Positions 1,650 through 24,132 of a stretch of DNA of 64,000 nucleotides are shown here, one piece after another. The first letter of the stretch is position 1, and every line of letters starts with the position of its first letter. The stretch covers positions 868,001 through 932,000 of the forward strand of contig NZ_NEVU01000002.1 of NCBI RefSeq assembly GCF_002261355.1. Direction: 5' to 3'. A program made the translations under genes and the position numbers. Under the pieces are notes generated by a model. It saw nothing but the letters and a program-made list of their open reading frames with translations. It had not been told where the DNA came from and made no database searches. The DNA comes from Bordetella genomosp. 12 (GTDB taxonomy: Bacteria; Pseudomonadota; Gammaproteobacteria; Burkholderiales; Burkholderiaceae_B).

Positions 1650-3488
1650 ATGTTTGCGAATATGAAAGTCCGGACCAGCATGATTCTGGTGCTCGGGCTC
1701 TTCTTCCTGGCGATGTTGGCGTCGAACGCCGCCGGTTGGTGGGGCCTGAATGCAAGCAACTCCCGGTTGGACAGCGTCAATCGGATCTTCACGGATCAGG
1801 TGATGGCCAGCTACGCCGGCTACACCGTGGCGCTGCGTTCGCGCATCAACATGAACAACGCGATGGCCAATCTGCAGGAAGGCCGCCTGAGCGAGTTCGA
1901 AGAGCAAAGCAAGCTCGCCAAGCAGGGGCTGGTCGAGGCGGCCAAGCGATTCGAGACCTTCAGCAAGGCGCCCAAAACGCCCGACGTCCAGGAAAAGGCG
2001 GCGCCGCTGGAGGCCAATTTCAAGACCTATGTGGAAGGCTTGAAGCGCCTGCAGGACGCGCTGGCACGCCAGGCTATTGCCGACTACATGCAGCTCATTC
2101 CCGAGGTCTCCGCGCAGAATCTGCGTTTCGATACCTCCATGGAAGCCTATATGAGCTATGTCGATGGCATCACCGATGCCTATGTCGCCGAAGCCGAGGT
2201 CGCCCACGTCCAGTCGAATGGGGTGATTCTGGCGCTGGTGGGGCTGTCGATCGTGCTGGCGCTGGGCGCGGCCCTGTTCATTTCGCGCAAAGTGCTCAAA
2301 CCGCTGGTCGAGGCGGGCGGTCACTTTGACCGGATAGCGGGAGGGGATCTGACGGCGCGGGTGGAAGTGCGCAGCAGCAACGAGATCGGTCAGTTGTTCG
2401 GTGCACTCAAGCGGATGCAGGAGAGCCTGACGCGCACGGTGTCGTCGGTGCGTCGAGGTGTGGACGAGATCAATGTGGGGGCGCGCGAGATATCGGCGGG
2501 CAACACGGATCTGTCGAGCCGCACGGAGGAGCAGGCGGCGTCGCTGGAAGAGACGGCGGCGTCGATGGAAGAGCTGGCGTCGACGGTGCGGCAGAACGCG
2601 GACAATGCGCGGCAGGCGAATCAGCTGGCGGCGAGGGCCTCGGATGTGGCCGAGCGCGGGGGTTCTGCGGTGTCGGAGGTGGTGCAGACGATGCAGGGGA
2701 TCTCGGCGAGTTCGCGCAAGATCTCGGAGATTGTGTCGGTGATCGACGGGATTGCGTTTCAGACGAATATTTTGGCGCTGAATGCGGCGGTGGAAGCGGC
2801 GCGCGCCGGGGAGCAGGGCAAGGGTTTTGCGGTGGTGGCGGGCGAGGTGCGGTCGTTGGCGCAGCGCAGCGCGCAGGCGGCCAAGGAGATCAAGGGGCTG
2901 ATCGAGGATTCGGTGGGCAAGGTGTCGGCGGGTTCGCAGCAGGTGGAGCGTGCGGGGGCGACGATGCAAGAGATTGTGGCGTCGGTCAAGCGGGTGACGG
3001 ACATCATGGGTGAGATATCGGCGGCGTCGCAGGAGCAGTCCAGTGGCATCGAGCAGGTGAACCGGGCGATCACGCAGATGGACGAGGTGACGCAGCAGAA
3101 TGCGGCGCTGGTCGAGCAAGCCGCGGCCGCCGCGGGTTCCCTGCAGGAGCAGGCCCGTTATCTTTCTGAAGCGGTGGCGGTATTCAAGGTCAACGCCGGC
3201 GAAGTCATCGACGTGCCCACGCGCCAACTGGCGGGTGCGGCGGGTGCGGCGGGTGCGCCGCGAGTCGCCGCCCCGGCCGCGCCGTCCGCAGCGCCCGCGG
3301 CGGCCCCCGCGGCCGACACCCCGCGGCTGGCCACGCGCGCGGCCAAGGCGGGCACGCCGGCCGGCGCCAGCTCGCGCCGTGCGGTTCGCCGGCCTGCCGC
3401 TGCCAATGGGCATGCGCCGACCGAGGCCACGGCCAGCCCGGCCACGCCGCGCAAGCCGGCCGCGGATGACGATTGGGAATCATTCTGA
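1650..3488 (+). CDS. Methyl-accepting chemotaxis protein with C-terminal WESF tail
   Basis: A 612-residue transmembrane chemoreceptor: TM1 about 9-30, a four-helix-type periplasmic domain about 32-188, TM2 about 191-211, HAMP about 212-265, then a long methyl-accepting coiled coil with the conserved hairpin tip ([18 protein letters not shown], near residues 388-405). The last 85 residues form an Ala/Pro/Arg-rich linker ending in Asp-Trp-Glu-Ser-Phe, very like the NWETF pentapeptide that tethers CheR and CheB in enterobacterial receptors. Residues about 225-490 are almost identical, also at DNA level, to the receptor at 4164-5897. The ligand cannot be inferred. No convincing sigma-28 promoter was seen in the 74 bp after flgL, so it may be read from flgL. 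Confidence 0.95.
2322..3120 (+). repeat. Near-identical 0.8-kb duplication, copy 1 (MCP signalling domain)
   Basis: This stretch encodes HAMP plus most of the signalling helix and aligns without gaps to 4950-5748 (constant offset 2628). By eye I found about nine or ten single-base differences, nearly all synonymous, for example AGG/AGC at the codon after GCG near 2634. Identity breaks off sharply at both ends, inside the Gly/Ala-rich part before HAMP and just after a GTCGAGCAAG segment. This is what a recent segmental duplication or ongoing gene conversion between the two receptors would leave. Confidence 0.93.
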
Positions 3489-12160: not shown

Positions 12161-13456
12161 TCAGGCGTAAGTGTTGACGAGGCCGTCATGCGCCTGGCCG
12201 AGGCGCGCCGCAGGGCTGTCGCCGCGCGCCACGGCCTGAGGCGATGGGTTGTCCTGCGACTGTCCCTGGCCTGTCGAAGATTGCCCGGAAGACTGCCCGT
12301 CTGCCTGGCCGGACATGGCTTGCTGGCCCTGTTCGCCGACATGCGTCTGGCCCAGCGAAATGCCCGCTTGCGACAGGGCTTGCTGCAACTGTGGCAGGGC
12401 CGTTTCCACGGCGTGGCGCACCGCGGCGTGCGCGGAGACGAAGCTGGCGCTGGCCACGCCGTCGTTCAGGCTGAGCGTGACGCGCAATGGCCCCAGATCG
12501 GGAGGATCCAGGCGCAGTTCCGCAGTATGGCTGCCCTGGGTCAGATTCTGGCTGAAGGTCGCGACCTGGCGGCTGAGCTCCTGGCCCCATTGCGTGGCGC
12601 CTACCGGCGTGCTGAGCTGCAGGCTGGCGGTGGCGGAGGCCCCATCGGCGGTCACGGGCAGACGTGCTGCCGACAGGTCCAGGGCCGCGAAGGCTTCCTG
12701 AGGCGCGGGGGCCGGCTTGCCGGTCACGGCTTCCAGCGTGTCCGGCGGGGGGGCGGAAGCCGCGCGCGAGCCGGTGGCTCCGGCGGCGTCGACAGCTTGC
12801 GCCGCCAGTGCGGCGTGCGCTTGCGGCACCGTGTTGCTGACCGCGCGCGGGCTTTCCTGTGCGCTGTCGGCAGGCGTTCTGGACTGGGCCGCGGGGCGCG
12901 GTTTTGCCGGCGTGATGCTGGCCATCGTCTGCGGCGCTGCGGCGAGGGTGCGCACGTCCTCTTCTGCCTCCCGGGTCTCGGCCAGCGCTGCGGCGTTGCG
13001 GGGCGTCGCGGCCTTGGCCGCCGCGACCTGTGCCTGGACCTCGGCCGCCTGTGCGGCGATATCCAGCGCCTGTTGCGGCAGCGTCGTGACAGCGGGCGGC
13101 AAGGCGGCGGGCTGGACCAGGCCCAGCATGGCGGCGAGATCCGCAGCGTCGTCGGGTTGCGTCGCGGCCGCCGATGCTTTGATTTCCTCCGGCTTTCCGT
13201 CCGTGTCCGCGGCAGGGGCGGCGGCCGCTTCAGGCGTGGCGTTTGGCTTGCTGGCCTGCGGCCGGTCCTTGTCGCGGCCGCGCAAGGAAGTATCCGGTTG
13301 CGCGGCGTCCTTGGCGTTTTGCCGCTTGAGCGTGGCGGCAAACCCGCCATCGTCGGCGCGCTTGCCGGCGGCGGGGAGGGCGGCGGTCGTGGTCGCGGCA
13401 GGGGTCGGCGTGGCGGGGCTGGTCAACGTCAGGGCTAAAGCGGCAGCATTCATCAT
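12161..13456 (-). CDS. fliK: Flagellar hook-length control protein FliK
   Basis: FliK is the secreted ruler that measures hook length and switches export specificity via FlhB. The protein (431 residues from ATG 13456) has a long Ala/Pro/Thr-rich, low-complexity N-terminal ruler region and the conserved FliK C-terminal domain (about 285-380) with LRLDPPDLGPLRVTLSL and a Gln-rich tail. I chose the ATG pair at 13456/13453, 16 bp after fliJ, rather than the upstream ATG inside fliJ. It is the last gene of fliFGHIJK. A second FliK-like protein is encoded at 20054-21304. Confidence 0.9.
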   Translation of the reverse strand: MMNAAALALTLTSPATPTPAATTTAALPAAGKRADDGGFAATLKRQNAKDAAQPDTSLRGRDKDRPQASKPNATPEAAAAPAADTDGKPEEIKASAAATQPDDAADLAAMLGLVQPAALPPAVTTLPQQALDIAAQAAEVQAQVAAAKAATPRNAAALAETREAEEDVRTLAAAPQTMASITPAKPRPAAQSRTPADSAQESPRAVSNTVPQAHAALAAQAVDAAGATGSRAASAPPPDTLEAVTGKPAPAPQEAFAALDLSAARLPVTADGASATASLQLSTPVGATQWGQELSRQVATFSQNLTQGSHTAELRLDPPDLGPLRVTLSLNDGVASASFVSAHAAVRHAVETALPQLQQALSQAGISLGQTHVGEQGQQAMSGQADGQSSGQSSTGQGQSQDNPSPQAVARGDSPAARLGQAHDGLVNTYA

Positions 13457-13472
13457 CGCGGCGGTCCGGGGT

Positions 13473-13919
13473 TTACATGCCGGCCTGGCGGCGAACCAGG
13501 CGAGCCGAGATTTCATCATTGGCGCGCTGTTCGCGGCGCGCCTCGGTCAGTGCGCGGCTGCGGGCGTCGCGTTCGGCCAGGGTGTCGAAAGAGCTGAGCT
13601 TGCGCTTTTCGCGCTGCCAGTTCAGGCGTCCTTGCATCAATTGCATGTCGGCTTTCTGCAGTACATGGGTCTGCTGGCTGATGGCGTCATCAAGCGTGCC
13701 GATGAAGCGTTGATAGTTATGACAATCGGCCGCGGGCATGCCGGCGATCATGGCATCCTGCAGACGCTTGAGGTAATCCTGCCGGTAGTCATGCAGCATG
13801 CTCAGCTGACGCTCGGCATTGCCACGCTCGGCGTTCAGGCGGCCCAGTTCCCGGGCGGCCTCGTCGGTGCTGTCCTTGGCCAGGCTGATCAGCATATCCA
13901 GCGGCAGTTGACTAGGCAT
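13473..13919 (-). CDS. fliJ: Flagellar export chaperone/stalk protein FliJ
   Basis: A 148-residue, largely alpha-helical, charged protein with long heptad-like stretches and no hydrophobic segments. FliJ is the central stalk of the FliI ATPase ring and links it to FlhA. The start ATG at 13919 overlaps the end of fliI by 8 bp (the fliI stop lies at 13912-13914); an in-frame ATG farther upstream would be inside fliI and lacks FliJ features. Position between fliI and fliK plus size and coiled-coil character support the call. Confidence 0.92.
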
Positions 13920-18845: not shown

Positions 18846-19007
18846 GCGTCGAAAACAAGCGTTTTTTGGTGTCTTTTGTCTCCTATGTGGCGGCGTGCCG
18901 GGCAAGCGCCGAAGTGCGCGGGTTTTTGACGCTTGATAGGCGCAATGCCCGGGTCCGCCGCCTGTTAGTCTGCCGGCTATCGTGTTTCGCCCGTGCAAGG
19001 ATTGAAT

Positions 19008-19346
19008 ATGTCGGTTTCCGGCGTCTCAGGTATCGAAAGCATGCTGCAGCAGATGCGCGCCGTCGTGCGCGCCGCCCAGGACGGCTCGGCCGGCGCGGCG
19101 GATCTATCGCCTGCCGCCGCCCCGGCCAGTTTTGCGGCCGAGCTGCAGAACTCCCTGCGCAAGGTGTCCAACGCCCAGAACGCCGCGACCGCGCAGGCCA
19201 AGGCCTTCGAGCTGGGCGCGCCCGAGGTGTCGCTCAATGATGTGATGATCGATCTGCAGAAGGCCAGTCTCGGCTTTCAAACCACGGTGCAGGTGCGCAA
19301 CCGCCTGGTTGCCGCCTACAAAGAAATTTCGTCGATGTCGATCTGA
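19008..19346 (+). CDS. fliE: Flagellar hook-basal body protein FliE
   Basis: A 112-residue FliE, the adaptor joining the MS-ring to the rod. The C-terminal part carries the family pattern [27 protein letters not shown] (key residues around 77-103), ending YKEISSMSI. The ATG at 19008 follows AAGGA by about 6 bp; an in-frame GTG at 18993 is possible but lacks a ribosome-binding site. It is transcribed divergently from fliF, as in other flagellar systems, and converges with the small gene at 19355 with only 8 bp between the stops. Confidence 0.95.
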
Positions 19347-19358
19347 GGCCGGCCTCAG
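19343..19358. repeat. 16-bp perfect palindrome carrying both convergent stop codons
   Basis: CTGAGGCCGGCCTCAG is its own reverse complement. It contains the fliE stop TGA at 19344-19346 and, on the other strand, the stop of the 19355-19762 gene at 19357-19355. No T-run flanks it, so function as a terminator is doubtful. Confidence 0.8.
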
Positions 19359-19762
19359 GCTGGCGTATCCACCGGCGTTTCGCGCCGCAGCAGCTGCGGA
19401 AATTCCGTGACCATGCCGACACTGCCGTCGGCGAAATTCAGCACGGTCGGGCGGCCGGCCTGAAACTGCAGCCGGCTGCCGTCGTCCAGGGAAATGGAGA
19501 GCTCCACCGGCAGCGTGCCATTGAGCAGTTGGGCGCCGCCCGGCATGACTGCTGCCTGTTGCGGGTCGTGCGGACGCCAGAATAACAGGCTGGCCTGCCA
19601 GTCCGTACCGAGCAATTTGATGGGCCAGCTGCGGCCTTGCCCGTCCTGGGCGTGGGCGGTGTTGCCCGGGTGAACGGCGTCCTTGAGGAGGTCGATGATC
19701 TGCTGGGTGTCACGCAGCAGCTCGGTGTGGCACAAGGGCGGGGGGCTGAAAGGGTTAGGCAT
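19355..19762 (-). CDS. Small protein in flagellar operon, flagellar-brake (YcgR N-terminal)-like
   Basis: A 135-residue soluble protein without signal or membrane helix. I see an N-terminal helix (TQQIIDLLKDAV, about 19-30), then a run of strands: RSWPIKLLGTDW, ASLLFWRP, TLPVELSISLDDGSRLQFQAG. That order (helix, strand with a charged substrate loop, strand ending in Pro, then a LxFxxG strand) resembles the N-terminal domain of YcgR flagellar-brake proteins. The PilZ domain that binds c-di-GMP is absent. It overlaps the upstream FlhB-like gene by 8 bp and is last in the flaG operon, so a flagellar role is likely. The YcgR-N assignment is inference. Confidence 0.6.
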   Translation of the reverse strand: MPNPFSPPPLCHTELLRDTQQIIDLLKDAVHPGNTAHAQDGQGRSWPIKLLGTDWQASLLFWRPHDPQQAAVMPGGAQLLNGTLPVELSISLDDGSRLQFQAGRPTVLNFADGSVGMVTEFPQLLRRETPVDTPA

Positions 19763-20057
19763 GCGCGGCCTCGGTGGTGGCGGGCAGCTCCCGGGCTTCC
19801 AGACGATACAGCCAGGCGAGCAATTCGGCCACGGCGGTGTAGAGCTGTGGCGGGATGTGCGAATCCAGGTCGACCTGCATCAACAGGCCGACGAGCTCGG
19901 CGGACTCGTGGACATACAGGCCATGCTCCTTGGCGGTGCGCACGATGGTATCGGCGAGCTGTCCATAGCCTTTGGCCACCACGCGGGGCGCGCCATCGCT
20001 TTCGTCGTAACGGAGCGCCACCGAGGCGCCGCGGGAAGGGTCGTCGGTCGGCGTCAT
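19755..20057 (-). CDS. Free-standing FlhB C-terminal domain protein (FhlB/YlqH-like)
   Basis: A 100-residue protein that aligns to the cytoplasmic C-terminal half of FlhB only: strand VALRYDESDGAPRVVAKGYG, helix LADTIVRTAKEHG, strand YVHES, then helices AELVGLLMQVDLD and PPQLYTAVAELLAWLYRLE. It lacks the four membrane helices of FlhB and lacks the NPTH autocleavage motif; it starts about where the cleaved C-terminal fragment would start. Similar small FlhB-like proteins (FhlB; YlqH in Bacillus) occur beside FliK-like genes. The ATG overlaps the upstream FliK-like gene as ATGA (20057-20054). It may modulate the export-specificity switch. Confidence 0.85.
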   Translation of the reverse strand: MTPTDDPSRGASVALRYDESDGAPRVVAKGYGQLADTIVRTAKEHGLYVHESAELVGLLMQVDLDSHIPPQLYTAVAELLAWLYRLEARELPATTEAAHA

Positions 20058-21304
20058 GCGTCTGGCAAGAGGAAATCGGGAATCTGGACGGGCGGGGGCG
20101 CGACAGCCTGTACGCTCAGGTCGCTGAGCGTCAGGCCCGCGCCGGATAGCTGCTGGCGCAGCGCGGCGGCGGCTTGCTTGAGCTCGCCGGCGCTTTGCGG
20201 CGCAGTCAGCTGCAGTACCAGTTGCGAGCCGGCCAGCGACAGGCGGGCTTCGATCTCGCCCAGCCGAGGCAAGTGCAGCGTCAGGCGGCTGGCCCAATGG
20301 CTGTCCGGGTCCTGCGGTGCTTCGCCGTAGGGGTCGCGCCGCAGTTCCCAATCCATGTCGGCGCCGGGCCAGGGCTGGCCTTGCCAATGCACGACATGGT
20401 TGGCCAGGATCTCTAGCTGTTGGCGCACCAGGGCGTTGGTCTGCGGATGCAGGCCGGCGACCGGGGCGCCGGGCTCCTGTGCGCTGGCGCCCTCGGCCTG
20501 CGCACTGAGCGACAGCACCGCCGATCCCGAAGGCACCGAGGCCGGGCTGGCGGCCGCGCCGGCACGGCCGTGGACGGCGTTGGGCGTCGGCGCGGCGGGC
20601 GGCGGCGGCAGGGCCGCCTGCGGCTCGGCGCGCAAGGCCTCGGGCGCGCGCTGACCGTAAACCATGTCCGTCAAATGCGACTCATAGAACAGGCCGCTGG
20701 TCTGCAGGCTCTGGCGCAGCGCCTGGGCGAAAGCGGCCGCGCTGGGCAGCGGCCCAGCCGCTGCGCCGGACGCGCTTGGCGCGATCTGCGCGGGCCGGCC
20801 GGGCGGTGCCGAAACCGCGGCGTTCTCGACTTCGTCCGGCTGGGGCTCGGCCGACGGTGCTGGCGCGGCCTGCGCCGCGTTGCCGCGGGCGGGGTCGGGC
20901 GGGGTCCATAGTGCGCTGGCGCCCTGGGCGGCGGGCGCGGCGCCTGGGTATTGAGCCAGCAAGGACAGGATGATGCGCGCCGTATTGCCCAGCGTGGTGG
21001 GGGCCGAGGCGGTCGTGTCCCGGCTCGTGACCAGGCCGCGGGCGGCCAGGGCGAGTGCGGCCGCCGTTTTGGCGTCGACGACCGCGGCCTGACGTCCGGC
21101 CTGATCCGGCGTCGCACCAACCTGCCGCCTGGGATCGCGCGTCGCGTCATCGGTCTGGCCGGTGCGCGCCGTCTGCCCGGGTTGCCCCACCGCATCGGCG
21201 CGGGCGCCCGTCAGCGTGTTGGCGTGCGCGGCCATGGTGGTGCCCAGGACGGCGTCCAGGCGCTGCACCAGCACATTGCCCAGGGCGGGCGGGCCGACAC
21301 TCAT
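20054..21304 (-). CDS. Second FliK-like hook-length control protein
   Basis: A 416-residue protein with a long Ala/Gly/Pro-rich central part and a C-terminal FliK-like domain (about 305-405): MDWELRRDPYG, WASRLTLHLPRLGEIEARLSL, SQLVLQLTAPQSAGELKQAA, LRQQLSGAGLTLSDLSV. Sequence and length differ from FliK at 12161-13456. Genes of this type next to a FlhB C-terminal domain gene are found in several proteobacteria and resemble the ylqG-ylqH pair. It starts by ATGA overlap with fliT and ends by ATGA overlap with the FlhB-like gene. Whether it acts as a ruler or a regulator is not known. Confidence 0.8.
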   Translation of the reverse strand: MSVGPPALGNVLVQRLDAVLGTTMAAHANTLTGARADAVGQPGQTARTGQTDDATRDPRRQVGATPDQAGRQAAVVDAKTAAALALAARGLVTSRDTTASAPTTLGNTARIILSLLAQYPGAAPAAQGASALWTPPDPARGNAAQAAPAPSAEPQPDEVENAAVSAPPGRPAQIAPSASGAAAGPLPSAAAFAQALRQSLQTSGLFYESHLTDMVYGQRAPEALRAEPQAALPPPPAAPTPNAVHGRAGAAASPASVPSGSAVLSLSAQAEGASAQEPGAPVAGLHPQTNALVRQQLEILANHVVHWQGQPWPGADMDWELRRDPYGEAPQDPDSHWASRLTLHLPRLGEIEARLSLAGSQLVLQLTAPQSAGELKQAAAALRQQLSGAGLTLSDLSVQAVAPPPVQIPDFLLPDA

Positions 21305-21651
21305 GCGCTATTCGCCTTGCCGCCATAGGTGGCCAGCAGCGATTGCTGCCGCTTCATGCGGCCCAGCAGGTGGCCCAGGCGGGCCAATTGGGGCACGGCC
21401 AGGTCACGCACGGCGGCATCGTTTTCCAGGATGCGCACCAGCAGGTCGTACTTCATGGCGCGGCCGGCTTCGTCCAGCGCAGCGGCGGGATCCAGGGCGC
21501 GCAGTTGGTCGACCAGCGCTATATATTGACGTCCCAGGACCAGCACTTGGGTCCAGTCCTCGTCCTGCGCGGACGACAGCATATCTCCGGTCACGGAGGC
21601 GATGTCCTGATACAAATCGAGAACGGGGGCTTGCTGCATGAGAGCCGTCAT
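21301..21651 (-). CDS. fliT: Flagellar export chaperone FliT
   Basis: A 116-residue all-helical protein. The N-terminal helix LDLYQDIASVTGDMLSSAQDEDWTQVLVLGRQY and the following segment fit FliT, the cytosolic chaperone for the filament cap protein FliD and, in enterobacteria, an anti-FlhDC factor. The C-terminal LGHLLGRMKRQQSLLATYGG helix is the likely FliD/FliI-binding part. It follows fliS by 46 bp and overlaps the second FliK-like gene by 4 bp. ATG at 21651 is taken as the start; ATG at 21639 is an alternative. Confidence 0.88.
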   Translation of the reverse strand: MTALMQQAPVLDLYQDIASVTGDMLSSAQDEDWTQVLVLGRQYIALVDQLRALDPAAALDEAGRAMKYDLLVRILENDAAVRDLAVPQLARLGHLLGRMKRQQSLLATYGGKANSA

Positions 21652-21697: not shown

Positions 21698-22126
21698 TCA
21701 GGCCGAAGCGCCAGCGGGGGCCGGGTCTACCGAGCTCTCCCAGGCCGAAGCCAATTCCGCCAGCAGGCGGTCCGCCACGTCGAGTTGCCCGGCGTCGGCG
21801 TGCAGATTGGCTTTGAGCAACGTGCGAGTGACAAAGTCGTAAAGCTCGGAGAGGTTCGCCGCGAGTTCGCCGCCAGCCTCCATATTGAGCCCCTGCTTGA
21901 GGCCTTCGTCCACGATGCGCGTGGCCTTGGAGATGGCCTGGCCGCGCTCGGCGACACGGCCGGCCTCGAGATGAAGTCGGGCCTGGGCGATCGCGGCGCG
22001 CGCGCCGCGATACAACAAGGTGATGAGGCGCTCCGGAGCAGCGCTCATGACCTCGGTTTCCAGGCCTATGTCCTGGTAGGAGCGGGCGGATTGGTAGCCC
22101 GTCGGGCGGCGCACGGCATAAGTCAT
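21698..22126 (-). CDS. fliS: Flagellin export chaperone FliS
   Basis: A 142-residue FliS. The N-terminus contains the conserved YRSARSYQDIGLETEVMSA pattern and AAPERLITLLYRGA helix, followed by helices that bind the flagellin C-terminus and stop premature polymerisation in the cytosol. It lies 11 bp after fliD and before fliT, the usual fliD-fliS-fliT order. The flagellin it serves is not encoded in this window. Confidence 0.95.
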   Translation of the reverse strand: MTYAVRRPTGYQSARSYQDIGLETEVMSAAPERLITLLYRGARAAIAQARLHLEAGRVAERGQAISKATRIVDEGLKQGLNMEAGGELAANLSELYDFVTRTLLKANLHADAGQLDVADRLLAELASAWESSVDPAPAGASA

Positions 22127-22137
22127 GATTTACAACG

Positions 22138-23514
22138 CTAGTCGGAAGACGAGGTCAGGGCGGCGAACTGCTGGGTCAGGTACTCGCTGGTGCTCTTTAG
22201 CTGCACCACCAGCGCATCCAGTTTGACGAACTGGGTGCGGTAGTTGGCCATGGTCGCCTCGATCTGGCTTTCGGTGGATTCGTATTGCTTCTTGAGGGTC
22301 TCGAGCGTTTTGTTCAGCCCGTCGGTGCGGGTTTTGATCGAGCCGTTGGTGCCCAGCATCTTGTCGGTCGCGGCGCCCATTTTGGATGCCACGCCGTTGG
22401 TGCCGGCAAAAACGCGCAGCACGTCGTTGGGGTTTTCGTTCAACGCTTTGGTGAACTTTTCGCTGTCCAGGCTCAACTGGCCCGTCGAGGAGTTGATCGT
22501 GATGCCCAGTTGGCCCAGATTCTGGACAGTGCCTTCGCCCGTGGCGACCTGCAAGGCCGCCGCGACGGCGGACTGGATGTTGCGCGCGGTTCCGTCGCCG
22601 GTCAGGGCGCTCTGCGTTTCGTCGGCGACACTGAAGGCGGTCAGGTCCGCGATCGTCGACTGCAGCGAGTTGTACGCATTGACGAAGGATTGCACCAGCG
22701 TGGTGACTTTGCTGTTGTCTTGCGAGATGGTCAGCGTGGCGCCATTGCCGCCGGTGGCGGTGACCGCGGTCAGATTCAGCGTGATGCCGTCGATGGCGGT
22801 GGTCACCGTGTTGGTCTGGCTGGTGACGGCAATACCGTTGATGGACAACTGCGCATCCTTGGCGGCCGTCAGCACCGTCATCGGCGAACTGCTATCGCTG
22901 GCGTCGTACTGGAGGGTGGCAGCCAAGGTGTCGTTACCGGTGACAGCAATCTTGCTGACCGCAGCCTTGGTGCCCTCGGTGTTGGAGGACACCATCAGGT
23001 AATAGTTGTTGTTGCCATCATTGACCACCGTGGCGCTCAGACCGAGCGAGTCATCGCCGTTGATGGCCTTGACGATGCCGTTGAGGGAGGTGTCCGTGCC
23101 CAGCGTGACAGACTTCTCTTCGCCGTTGATGGTGAAAGTCACCGTGCCGCCCGTTCCCATACTGTCGACGCGGCTGCTATAGGCCTGGGTTTGCAGGGAT
23201 TGCGCGGTGGCCAGCTGGGTTACCTTGATGTTGTAGGTGCCCGCCGTCGCGCCGGTGCCGATGCTCGAGGTCACGCCGTCGCCCGTCACCTTGTTGGTGA
23301 GGATGTTCGAGCCGGTCATGCCGGTGAGGTCGGACGCGGCTTTCTGCAAGGTTTCCACCGCGCTCTGGATCTTGCCGAACGCCGAAATCCGCGTCTGAGC
23401 GCTGGTCTGCTGATTGGTGATCAACGTCAGCCGTTGCTCTTCCGCGGCCTGCAGTTTGTCCAGCGTATCCTGCAGTGGCAAACCTGAGGAGCCGAGCGAC
23501 GAGATGGTGGCCAT
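22138..23514 (-). CDS. fliD: Flagellar filament cap protein FliD
   Basis: A 458-residue HAP2, the cap under which flagellin folds at the filament tip. The N-terminal coiled coil with TISSLGSSGLPLQDTLDKL and the C-terminal one ending LVVQLKSTSEYLTQQFAALTSS flank a Thr/Ser/Asn-rich beta domain (about 95-350) with VGTGATAGTYNIKVTQLA typical of FliD. Codon usage is less GC-extreme than in neighbours, as is common in surface flagellar proteins. The ATG at 23514 follows AAGGAG. It is separated from flaG by 134 bp holding a strong hairpin. Confidence 0.95.
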   Translation of the reverse strand: MATISSLGSSGLPLQDTLDKLQAAEEQRLTLITNQQTSAQTRISAFGKIQSAVETLQKAASDLTGMTGSNILTNKVTGDGVTSSIGTGATAGTYNIKVTQLATAQSLQTQAYSSRVDSMGTGGTVTFTINGEEKSVTLGTDTSLNGIVKAINGDDSLGLSATVVNDGNNNYYLMVSSNTEGTKAAVSKIAVTGNDTLAATLQYDASDSSSPMTVLTAAKDAQLSINGIAVTSQTNTVTTAIDGITLNLTAVTATGGNGATLTISQDNSKVTTLVQSFVNAYNSLQSTIADLTAFSVADETQSALTGDGTARNIQSAVAAALQVATGEGTVQNLGQLGITINSSTGQLSLDSEKFTKALNENPNDVLRVFAGTNGVASKMGAATDKMLGTNGSIKTRTDGLNKTLETLKKQYESTESQIEATMANYRTQFVKLDALVVQLKSTSEYLTQQFAALTSSSD

Positions 23515-23648: not shown

Positions 23649-24017
23649 TCAGGCCGTGGTCTCCACGGTATTGCCTTGCAGTTTCACGATCATCTTGGCG
23701 TACCGGATGGCCGCATCGGTCGGAATGGTGCGCAGCACTTCGCCGCTTTCACTGTCGCGCAGCGAGATCACGATGCGGTGCAGGTCCGGATCCATGTCAA
23801 AGTGCAGCTCGGTCGCCCACGCTTGAAGCTGCTTGTTGATGTCCTGCACGGCGGCCGCAACCGAGGCTGCCGCCTCCTGGGAGTCCGCCCTGGCGGGCTG
23901 GGCCGGGCCGGCGGCTGGGGTGCGCGGCGGTTCGGCGGATGCGGGCAGGGCGGCGGCGGGCGCCGTGCTGGCGGGCGCCGAAGCGGGCAAGGACAGGCTG
24001 ATGGGGCTGACAGTCAT
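23649..24017 (-). CDS. flaG: FlaG family flagellar protein
   Basis: A 122-residue FlaG/YvyC-type protein. The N-terminal half is an Ala/Pro-rich linker; the C-terminal half (about 60-122) has the family pattern LQAWATELHFDMDPDLHRIVISLRDSESGEVLRTIP and ends in a strand-rich DAAIRYAKMIVKLQG segment. FlaG influences filament length in other bacteria and usually lies next to fliD, as here. The ATG at 24017, with GGAG 5 bp upstream, is preferred to GTG at 24023. A FliA promoter lies upstream. Confidence 0.9.
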   Translation of the reverse strand: MTVSPISLSLPASAPASTAPAAALPASAEPPRTPAAGPAQPARADSQEAAASVAAAVQDINKQLQAWATELHFDMDPDLHRIVISLRDSESGEVLRTIPTDAAIRYAKMIVKLQGNTVETTA

Positions 24018-24105
24018 GTTCACTCCAGCGCGGGGTGGCCGTGGGATTTCGATCGCTCAAAGATGGGGGTGACGCATCATCGGTTGGGTAAAAATCTCAG
24101 CTACC

Positions 24106-24132
24106 ATAACGGCAGGCTGAACAAGAACTTTA
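24106..24132 (-). promoter_or_regulatory. FliA (sigma-28) promoter of flaG-fliDST operon
   Basis: On the minus strand TAAAGTTC (24132-24125), an 11-bp spacer and GCCGTTAT (24113-24106) match the enterobacterial FliA consensus TAAAGTTT-N11-GCCGATAA at 7/8 and 6/8 positions with exact spacing. Transcription would start about 80 bp before the flaG ATG. This fits late-class control of filament cap genes. Confidence 0.8.

Follow-up and report, generated by a model that had tools for sequence, protein, structure and literature searches.

A predicted stand-alone PilZN domain of the flagellar brake YcgR follows a FliK2-FlhX gene pair in Bordetella and its relatives

A flagellar operon of Bordetella genomosp. 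12 ends, after flaG-fliD-fliS-fliT, in three genes that encode a second FliK-like protein (K, or FliK2), an orphan C-terminal domain of FlhB (B, of the FlhX/FhlB type) and a short protein (T) that profile comparison and predicted structures identify as a stand-alone PilZN domain of the flagellar brake YcgR. This trio is genuine, and an old one: the same place holds a full-length YcgR in many relatives, so that Bordetella possesses a clipped form of an old arrangement. The genes lie in a window of 64,000 bp, the whole stretch of DNA that was analysed (contig NZ_NEVU01000002.1, positions 868,001 to 932,000; G000:C2:868001-932000 in our numbering), in a genome of 4.5 Mb. An original prediction, made from the letters of the window, had placed three genes overlapping head to tail after flaG-fliD-fliS-fliT, and its coordinates and overlaps proved exact. 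It had also named the first of them a FliK separate from the main fliK and the second an orphan FlhB C-terminal domain, and domain searches bear out both names.

Results

T as the N-terminal half of YcgR

Searched for by itself, T escapes recognition. The single sequence had no match in Pfam or NCBIfam, only weak and unrelated matches among PDB sequences (best E 0.4, to a benzaldehyde lyase) and none in a scan of the genome contigs or in a search of plasmids. Profile comparison relates T to YcgR, and two predicted structures give it the PilZN barrel fold of the YcgR N-terminal domain, the fold being confidently predicted; together they rule out that T is a novel fold or is unrelated to the brake. 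The mixed profile A4 found YcgR in the PDB, mostly via the PilZ half of its long members. When nine relatives of T were scanned with Pfam, all three long ones matched PilZN and PilZ below the cut-off, while PilZN was matched weakly in 2/6 short ones and not at all in the other 4/6.

The PilZ domain is missing from T, which ends just ahead of the position of the RR...R motif. This motif is present in 0/16 short T rows of alignment A1 versus 8/8 long rows, and both c-di-GMP patterns, the second of them searched loosely, occur in every long row (8/8 in A1, 14/14 in A4). The C-terminal tail helix with which YcgR binds MotA is gone from T along with the rest of the C-terminal half. Because it has no PilZ domain, T is not classed as a YcgR, and, lacking a c-di-GMP receptor domain, it cannot work as a c-di-GMP brake by the established route; the missing half rules out T as a full flagellar brake. 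The original prediction had called the third protein brake-like, a guess from sequence that was right for the N-terminal domain only, since the PilZN domain is there and the PilZ half with its c-di-GMP receptor is not. T thus has the PilZN fold of YcgR (E. coli, 5Y6F, and its N-terminal domain, 5Y6H; P. putida PP4397, 2GJG/3KYF), whose full-length form occupies the locus in relatives, but it differs from YcgR in lacking the PilZ domain, the RR...R motif and the C-terminal tail and in having a motif of its own, FWR[PL]. It differs likewise from MotI/DgrA of B. subtilis (5VX6), which has a PilZ domain.

The FWR[PL] motif marks the T line in its short and long forms alike (24/24 rows of A1, 19/19 of A4) and is missing from all 24 YcgR proteins of other groups in A5; the N-terminal domain would therefore have changed before the PilZ half was lost. 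Ten positions of A1 are invariant. As far as alignments and models go, they show a T that has lost its PilZ half and kept a predicted N-terminal barrel.

Short and long T in the family

Among 200 genomes of the family, T was matched in 36, representing 6 of 43 genera. K, B and T stand in the same order at all 30 T-bearing loci that were read (30 of the 36 matching genomes, that of the window included), and the three co-occur more than expected by chance. T is 128-140 amino acids long at 16/30 loci and 265-310 at 14/30; its open frame is intact in 16/16 short loci read, two of the 16 frames being read from the start of the match.

The relation of T to full-length YcgR varies among genera, as seen with the YcgR profile A5 in 38 chosen genomes. 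In the genus of the window (g1), full-length YcgR matches, one or two per genome, lie away from the trio in 11/11 genomes, and a short T accompanies them in 10/11, the exception being G197, in which B directly adjoins the convergent fliE-like gene. Four other genera (g4, g6, g9 and g10) have exactly one YcgR match in each of 19/19 genomes, and this match is the long T of the operon. A Bordetella-like genus (g16) has a short T in 7/8 genomes and a full-length YcgR match in 0/8; T is kept there without a detectable full-length YcgR. A Pfam search for PilZ in 25 of those 38 genomes also found none in the eight g16 genomes, but this adds little, since it missed the long T in 5/5 g4 genomes. The number of losses of the PilZ half could not be counted from the T tree.

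Two further observations concern full-length PilZ proteins. Two genomes of the window's genus carry two full-length YcgR-type genes in tandem (G068:C2:8324-9994 and G176:C1:303068-304738). The genome of the window has two PilZ matches, one in its separate full-length YcgR and the other in a 756-codon frame (G000:C1:218212-218502; L033) that reads like the cellulose synthase BcsA.

T is under purifying selection that is weaker than that on B or on long T. In two g1 pairs, dN/dS of T was 0.26 (L004-L070) and 0.29 (L007-L009) by NG86 and 0.16 and 0.07 by YN00, and that of B was 0.11 and 0.13 by NG86; in most other g1 pairs dS was near or above 1. Among g16-type loci the values were 0.18-0.44 for T (21 pairs) and 0.11-0.22 for B (15 pairs), and for long T they were 0.09-0.19 (10 pairs).

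The FliK2-FlhX pair

The FliK C-terminal domain of K spans residues 331-401 (PF02120, E 2.8e-14), and BLASTP of K against the main FliK found no similarity (best E 0.24). B matches only the C-terminal part of PF01312 (profile positions 262-335 of 335, E 9.5e-18) and has no membrane part; the best FlhB structure match to it in a search of PDB sequences was 3b0z (E 6.4e-12). Against TIGR00789, B scores 86.5 bits (E 1e-24), under the NCBIfam cut-off of 117.35, which is reached in 0/200 family genomes and so leaves out the whole sampled group. The NPTH autocleavage site is found in none of the 20 B rows of alignment A2 and is present in the genome's own full FlhB, whose gene is located outside the window. 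The best-ranked named record for B is from Bordetella pseudohinzii, with 83% identity in B and 66% in T.

Like FlhX, FhlB and YlqH, B is an FlhB C-terminal domain that lacks both the membrane part and NPTH, but here its gene overlaps a fliK-like gene at one end and a YcgR-derived gene at the other. Pairs of FliK-like and FlhB-like genes side by side have precedents, YlqG/YlqH being one. A gene pair named flhX-fliK is described for Nitratiruptor, of the Campylobacterota, in PMC9321776. The Burkholderiales-type loci that were read differ from it in that most place the pair after fliD-fliS(-fliT) and often add ycgR. The original prediction had regarded the trio as undescribed; the open-access literature searched does not contradict this, although the flhX-fliK pair is already in print.

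Two side observations bear on K. A third FliK C-terminal Pfam match in the genome, outside the window (G000:C3:736444-736656, E 2.1e-10; L037), falls in a 223-codon frame that lies beside an lpxC-like gene; we take the frame to encode a DUF721/DciA-type protein and not a flagellar FliK. At locus L017 (G092, 2205-3339), K is in two pieces in different frames and looks broken, either through mutation or because of an error in sequencing, while the frames of B and T are open there.

Recurrence of flhX beside ycgR

The original prediction named absence of its association from other genomes as a refutation; the association recurs both among named loci and across the order. The named loci were the 80 best-ranked among 539 relatives of B and form an uneven sample. 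A YcgR-type gene follows the orphan FlhB domain on the same strand in 50 of these 80, and in 46 of the 50 it is full length. At the sensitivity used, none follows B in the other 30, in Cupriavidus, Pandoraea, Castellaniella and Paenalcaligenes for example, and K is present in all 30. Upstream of B, K was found in 73/80 loci. Where over 3.5 kb of upstream DNA was available, at 62 loci, fliS was present in 53. At two Paenalcaligenes loci (L104, L128) the fliE-like gene after B lies on the strand of B; in the window it is convergent.

In a sample of 110 genomes of the order, the matches listed included an orphan FlhB domain in 70 genomes, a YcgR match in 69 and both in 63. Among these listed matches, flhX and ycgR lay within 1 kb of each other in 25 of the 63 genomes with both, from 15 families. 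The position of ycgR was 3' of flhX every time; the two genes shared a strand in 22 cases and were convergent in 3. The count of 25/63 is a lower bound, in that the profile is blind to short T and the window's own genome counts as non-adjacent. As a control, ycgR lay within 1 kb of none of 41 full FlhB rows (a part of all such rows), orphan and full FlhB having been told apart by hand from open frames and scores. The three convergent cases (G246, G260 and G303, from two families) have ycgR facing flhX from the opposite strand, with no shared transcript. In a sample of 66 genomes of the class, our own included, inspection by eye found no adjacent pair of YcgR and orphan FlhB, with a TIGR00789 match in 33 genomes and a YcgR match in 20.

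The seven named loci without K are all from Accumulibacter, of which they make up 7/9 loci (L111, L114, L120, L123, L130, L133 and L147, from metagenome-assembled genomes). In the DNA of these loci no FliK, FliD, FliS or FliT frame was found, and YcgR stands right after FlhX in each. Genes near the pair in the four loci viewed include those for a dicarboxylate symporter in L111, for DegT-type aminotransferases in L114 and L147 and for a VIT-domain protein in L130; the YcgR of L111, L114 and L147 scores above the PilZN and PilZ cut-offs. Since flhX-ycgR stands alone there, the pair persists without a late flagellar operon around it, and of all the observations these solitary pairs speak most strongly for a connection of FlhX with the brake that goes further than co-expression.

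Layout of the locus

The features of the locus are collected in Table 1. The overlaps are of 4 bases between fliT and K, 4 between K and B and 8 between B and T; fliT, K, B and T all start with ATG. Upstream of fliT, flaG, fliD and fliS all score above their Pfam cut-offs. A PilZ remnant downstream of T is ruled out in the window, because the stop codons of T and of the convergent fliE-like gene are 8 bp apart and leave no room for it. A sigma-28-like pattern, modelled on the general consensus, has a candidate site near flaG, but across the window it was matched 21 times versus 14.9 expected, and 8 of 100 shuffles gave as many; the window-wide count is not above chance and the site is at most suggestive, so that late-class transcription of the operon is an assumption.

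Table 1. Coordinates of the trio and neighbouring features in the window
Feature	Position	Strand	Evidence
K, second FliK-like protein, 416 aa	20054..21304	-	PF02120, 53.1 bits (cut-off 29.8)
B, orphan FlhB C-terminal domain (FlhX/FhlB type), 100 aa	19755..20057	-	PF01312, 64.9 bits
T, predicted stand-alone YcgR N-terminal (PilZN) domain, 135 aa	19355..19762	-	homologues and predicted structures
fliT	21301..21651	-	PF05400, E 8e-20
fliS	21698..22126	-	PF02561, E 7.9e-33
fliD	22138..23514	-	PF07195, E 1.2e-53
flaG	23649..24023	-	PF03646, E 1.5e-15
Main fliK, outside the trio	12161..13519	-	PF02120 at 12320-12550, E 3.0e-22
fliE-like gene, convergent with T	18993..19346	+	open frame; name from a reading of the protein, not a family search
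Candidate sigma-28-like promoter, weak: TAAAGTTC, 11 bases, GCCGTTAT	24106..24132	-	2 mismatches to the pattern; about 80 bases upstream of flaG

Discussion

The explanation that we favour, tentatively and at less than even confidence, is that the FliK2-FlhX pair works beside a T that is a c-di-GMP-blind but still-used remnant of the brake and acts on the rotor. K and B would mirror the two partners of the export-specificity switch, B as a ready-made copy of the cleaved C-terminal piece of FlhB and K as the candidate binder of B, and the pair may either replace FlhB-C and FliK at the export gate or vie with them there. The title of a 2006 report by Wand et al. is said to call HP1575 of H. pylori a 'spare part' for the FlhB C-terminal domain, which makes it plausible that K-B works on the export switch. 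T would derive from a YcgR brake that was once full-length and closed the same operon. In E. coli, according to PMC12713396, the C-terminal domain of YcgR binds c-di-GMP and, via its tail, MotA; the N-terminal domain is proposed as a binder of FliG. Loss of the PilZ domain would thus have cost T both c-di-GMP sensing and the tail that grips MotA. What is left may be a constitutive, c-di-GMP-independent rotor binder that sits on the side of FliG and adjusts the bias of switching or the engagement of the stator upon expression of the operon, and because it has neither sensor nor stator grip it would act whenever expressed. The trio would be held together at least by its overlaps and by a shared stage of use, that of filament growth and motor start, and direct contact of the brake part with FlhX is possible.

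Several observations weigh against a rotor-bound T. The short-T profile, searched against PDB sequences, found no YcgR match. T is missing beside B in G197, G015 and L085 and so is dispensable in some lineages, and it evolves faster than B. With an FWR[PL] motif of its own, T may have a changed binding surface, and FliG need not be its partner. The solitary Accumulibacter pairs are easier to reconcile with a link to FlhX than with a role in the motor alone.

This last point leads to a different explanation, a serious rival though on balance rather doubtful: T works with FlhX, and with FliK2, at the export gate, where the full-length form would feed c-di-GMP into the specificity switch, and in Bordetella this input would have disappeared and left T as a permanent component. 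The adjacency of ycgR to orphan FlhB domains (25/63 genomes among the matches listed) and not to full FlhB (0/41), the YcgR-type gene behind FlhX in 50/80 named loci, the 8-base overlap of B and T in the window and the persistence of T in g16, with no full YcgR found, all speak for it, as do above all 7/9 Accumulibacter loci, which co-expression with fliDST cannot explain. Adjacency within a late operon may, however, reflect shared expression: in E. coli, ycgR belongs to the last tier of flagellar genes (PMC12713396), so that the position of the trio behind other late genes may mean no more than joint expression. The additional checkpoint, linking filament assembly to the switch or the motor, that the original prediction had seen in the three proteins is a hypothesis. 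K-B pairs occur with no T detected in 30/80 named loci, 3 of the 25 adjacent cases are convergent, and no adjacent pair was seen by eye in the class sample of 66 genomes.

That T is instead the decaying, largely or wholly functionless leftover of a brake gene now lost seems improbable to us. The PilZ domain is gone, T as a whole has vanished from the three loci without it, and its faster evolution relative to B points the same way, but open frames of 128-140 amino acids are kept in 16/16 short loci with dN/dS clearly below 1, and the ten invariant positions of A1 and the confidently predicted fold are not those of a gene in decay. It is more improbable still that the partner of T is the separate full-length YcgR and that T alters its action, for instance by blocking or tuning the brake in a heterodimer. 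Such a partner exists in the window's genome and in 11/11 g1 genomes, but g16 keeps T (7/8 genomes) under purifying selection with a full-length YcgR match in 0/8, and pairing with YcgR therefore cannot be its general role.

A broader history can be sketched, which we offer as speculative and on balance unlikely in its entirety. FlhX-YcgR, usually with FliK2, would be a long-established module of the Burkholderiales through which c-di-GMP acts on the export switch, besides or instead of the motor. The Bordetella/Achromobacter branch would then have gained the FWR(P/L) surface, after which Bordetella and g16 dropped the c-di-GMP sensor and left a 'blind' brake domain, in g16 the only detectable piece of the brake family.

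For Bordetella, PMC12805831 states that c-di-GMP suppresses motility, that deletion of ycgR in B. bronchiseptica has no motility effect and that YcgR is the single PilZ protein. T, having no PilZ domain, would be invisible in such a count, and judged by titles and the openings of abstracts, the open-access literature searched describes neither the trio nor, for Bordetella, a YcgR without PilZ. An unannotated protein of YcgR descent, encoded in the flagellar operon of relatives of Bordetella, would be a concrete candidate to test here, should B. bronchiseptica carry it as well. The recurrent fliK2-flhX-ycgR arrangement and the solitary flhX-ycgR pairs make crosstalk between the brake and the export switch testable, and a stand-alone PilZN domain would amount to a natural deletion experiment on a two-domain brake, revealing which features selection retains once the c-di-GMP half has been lost.
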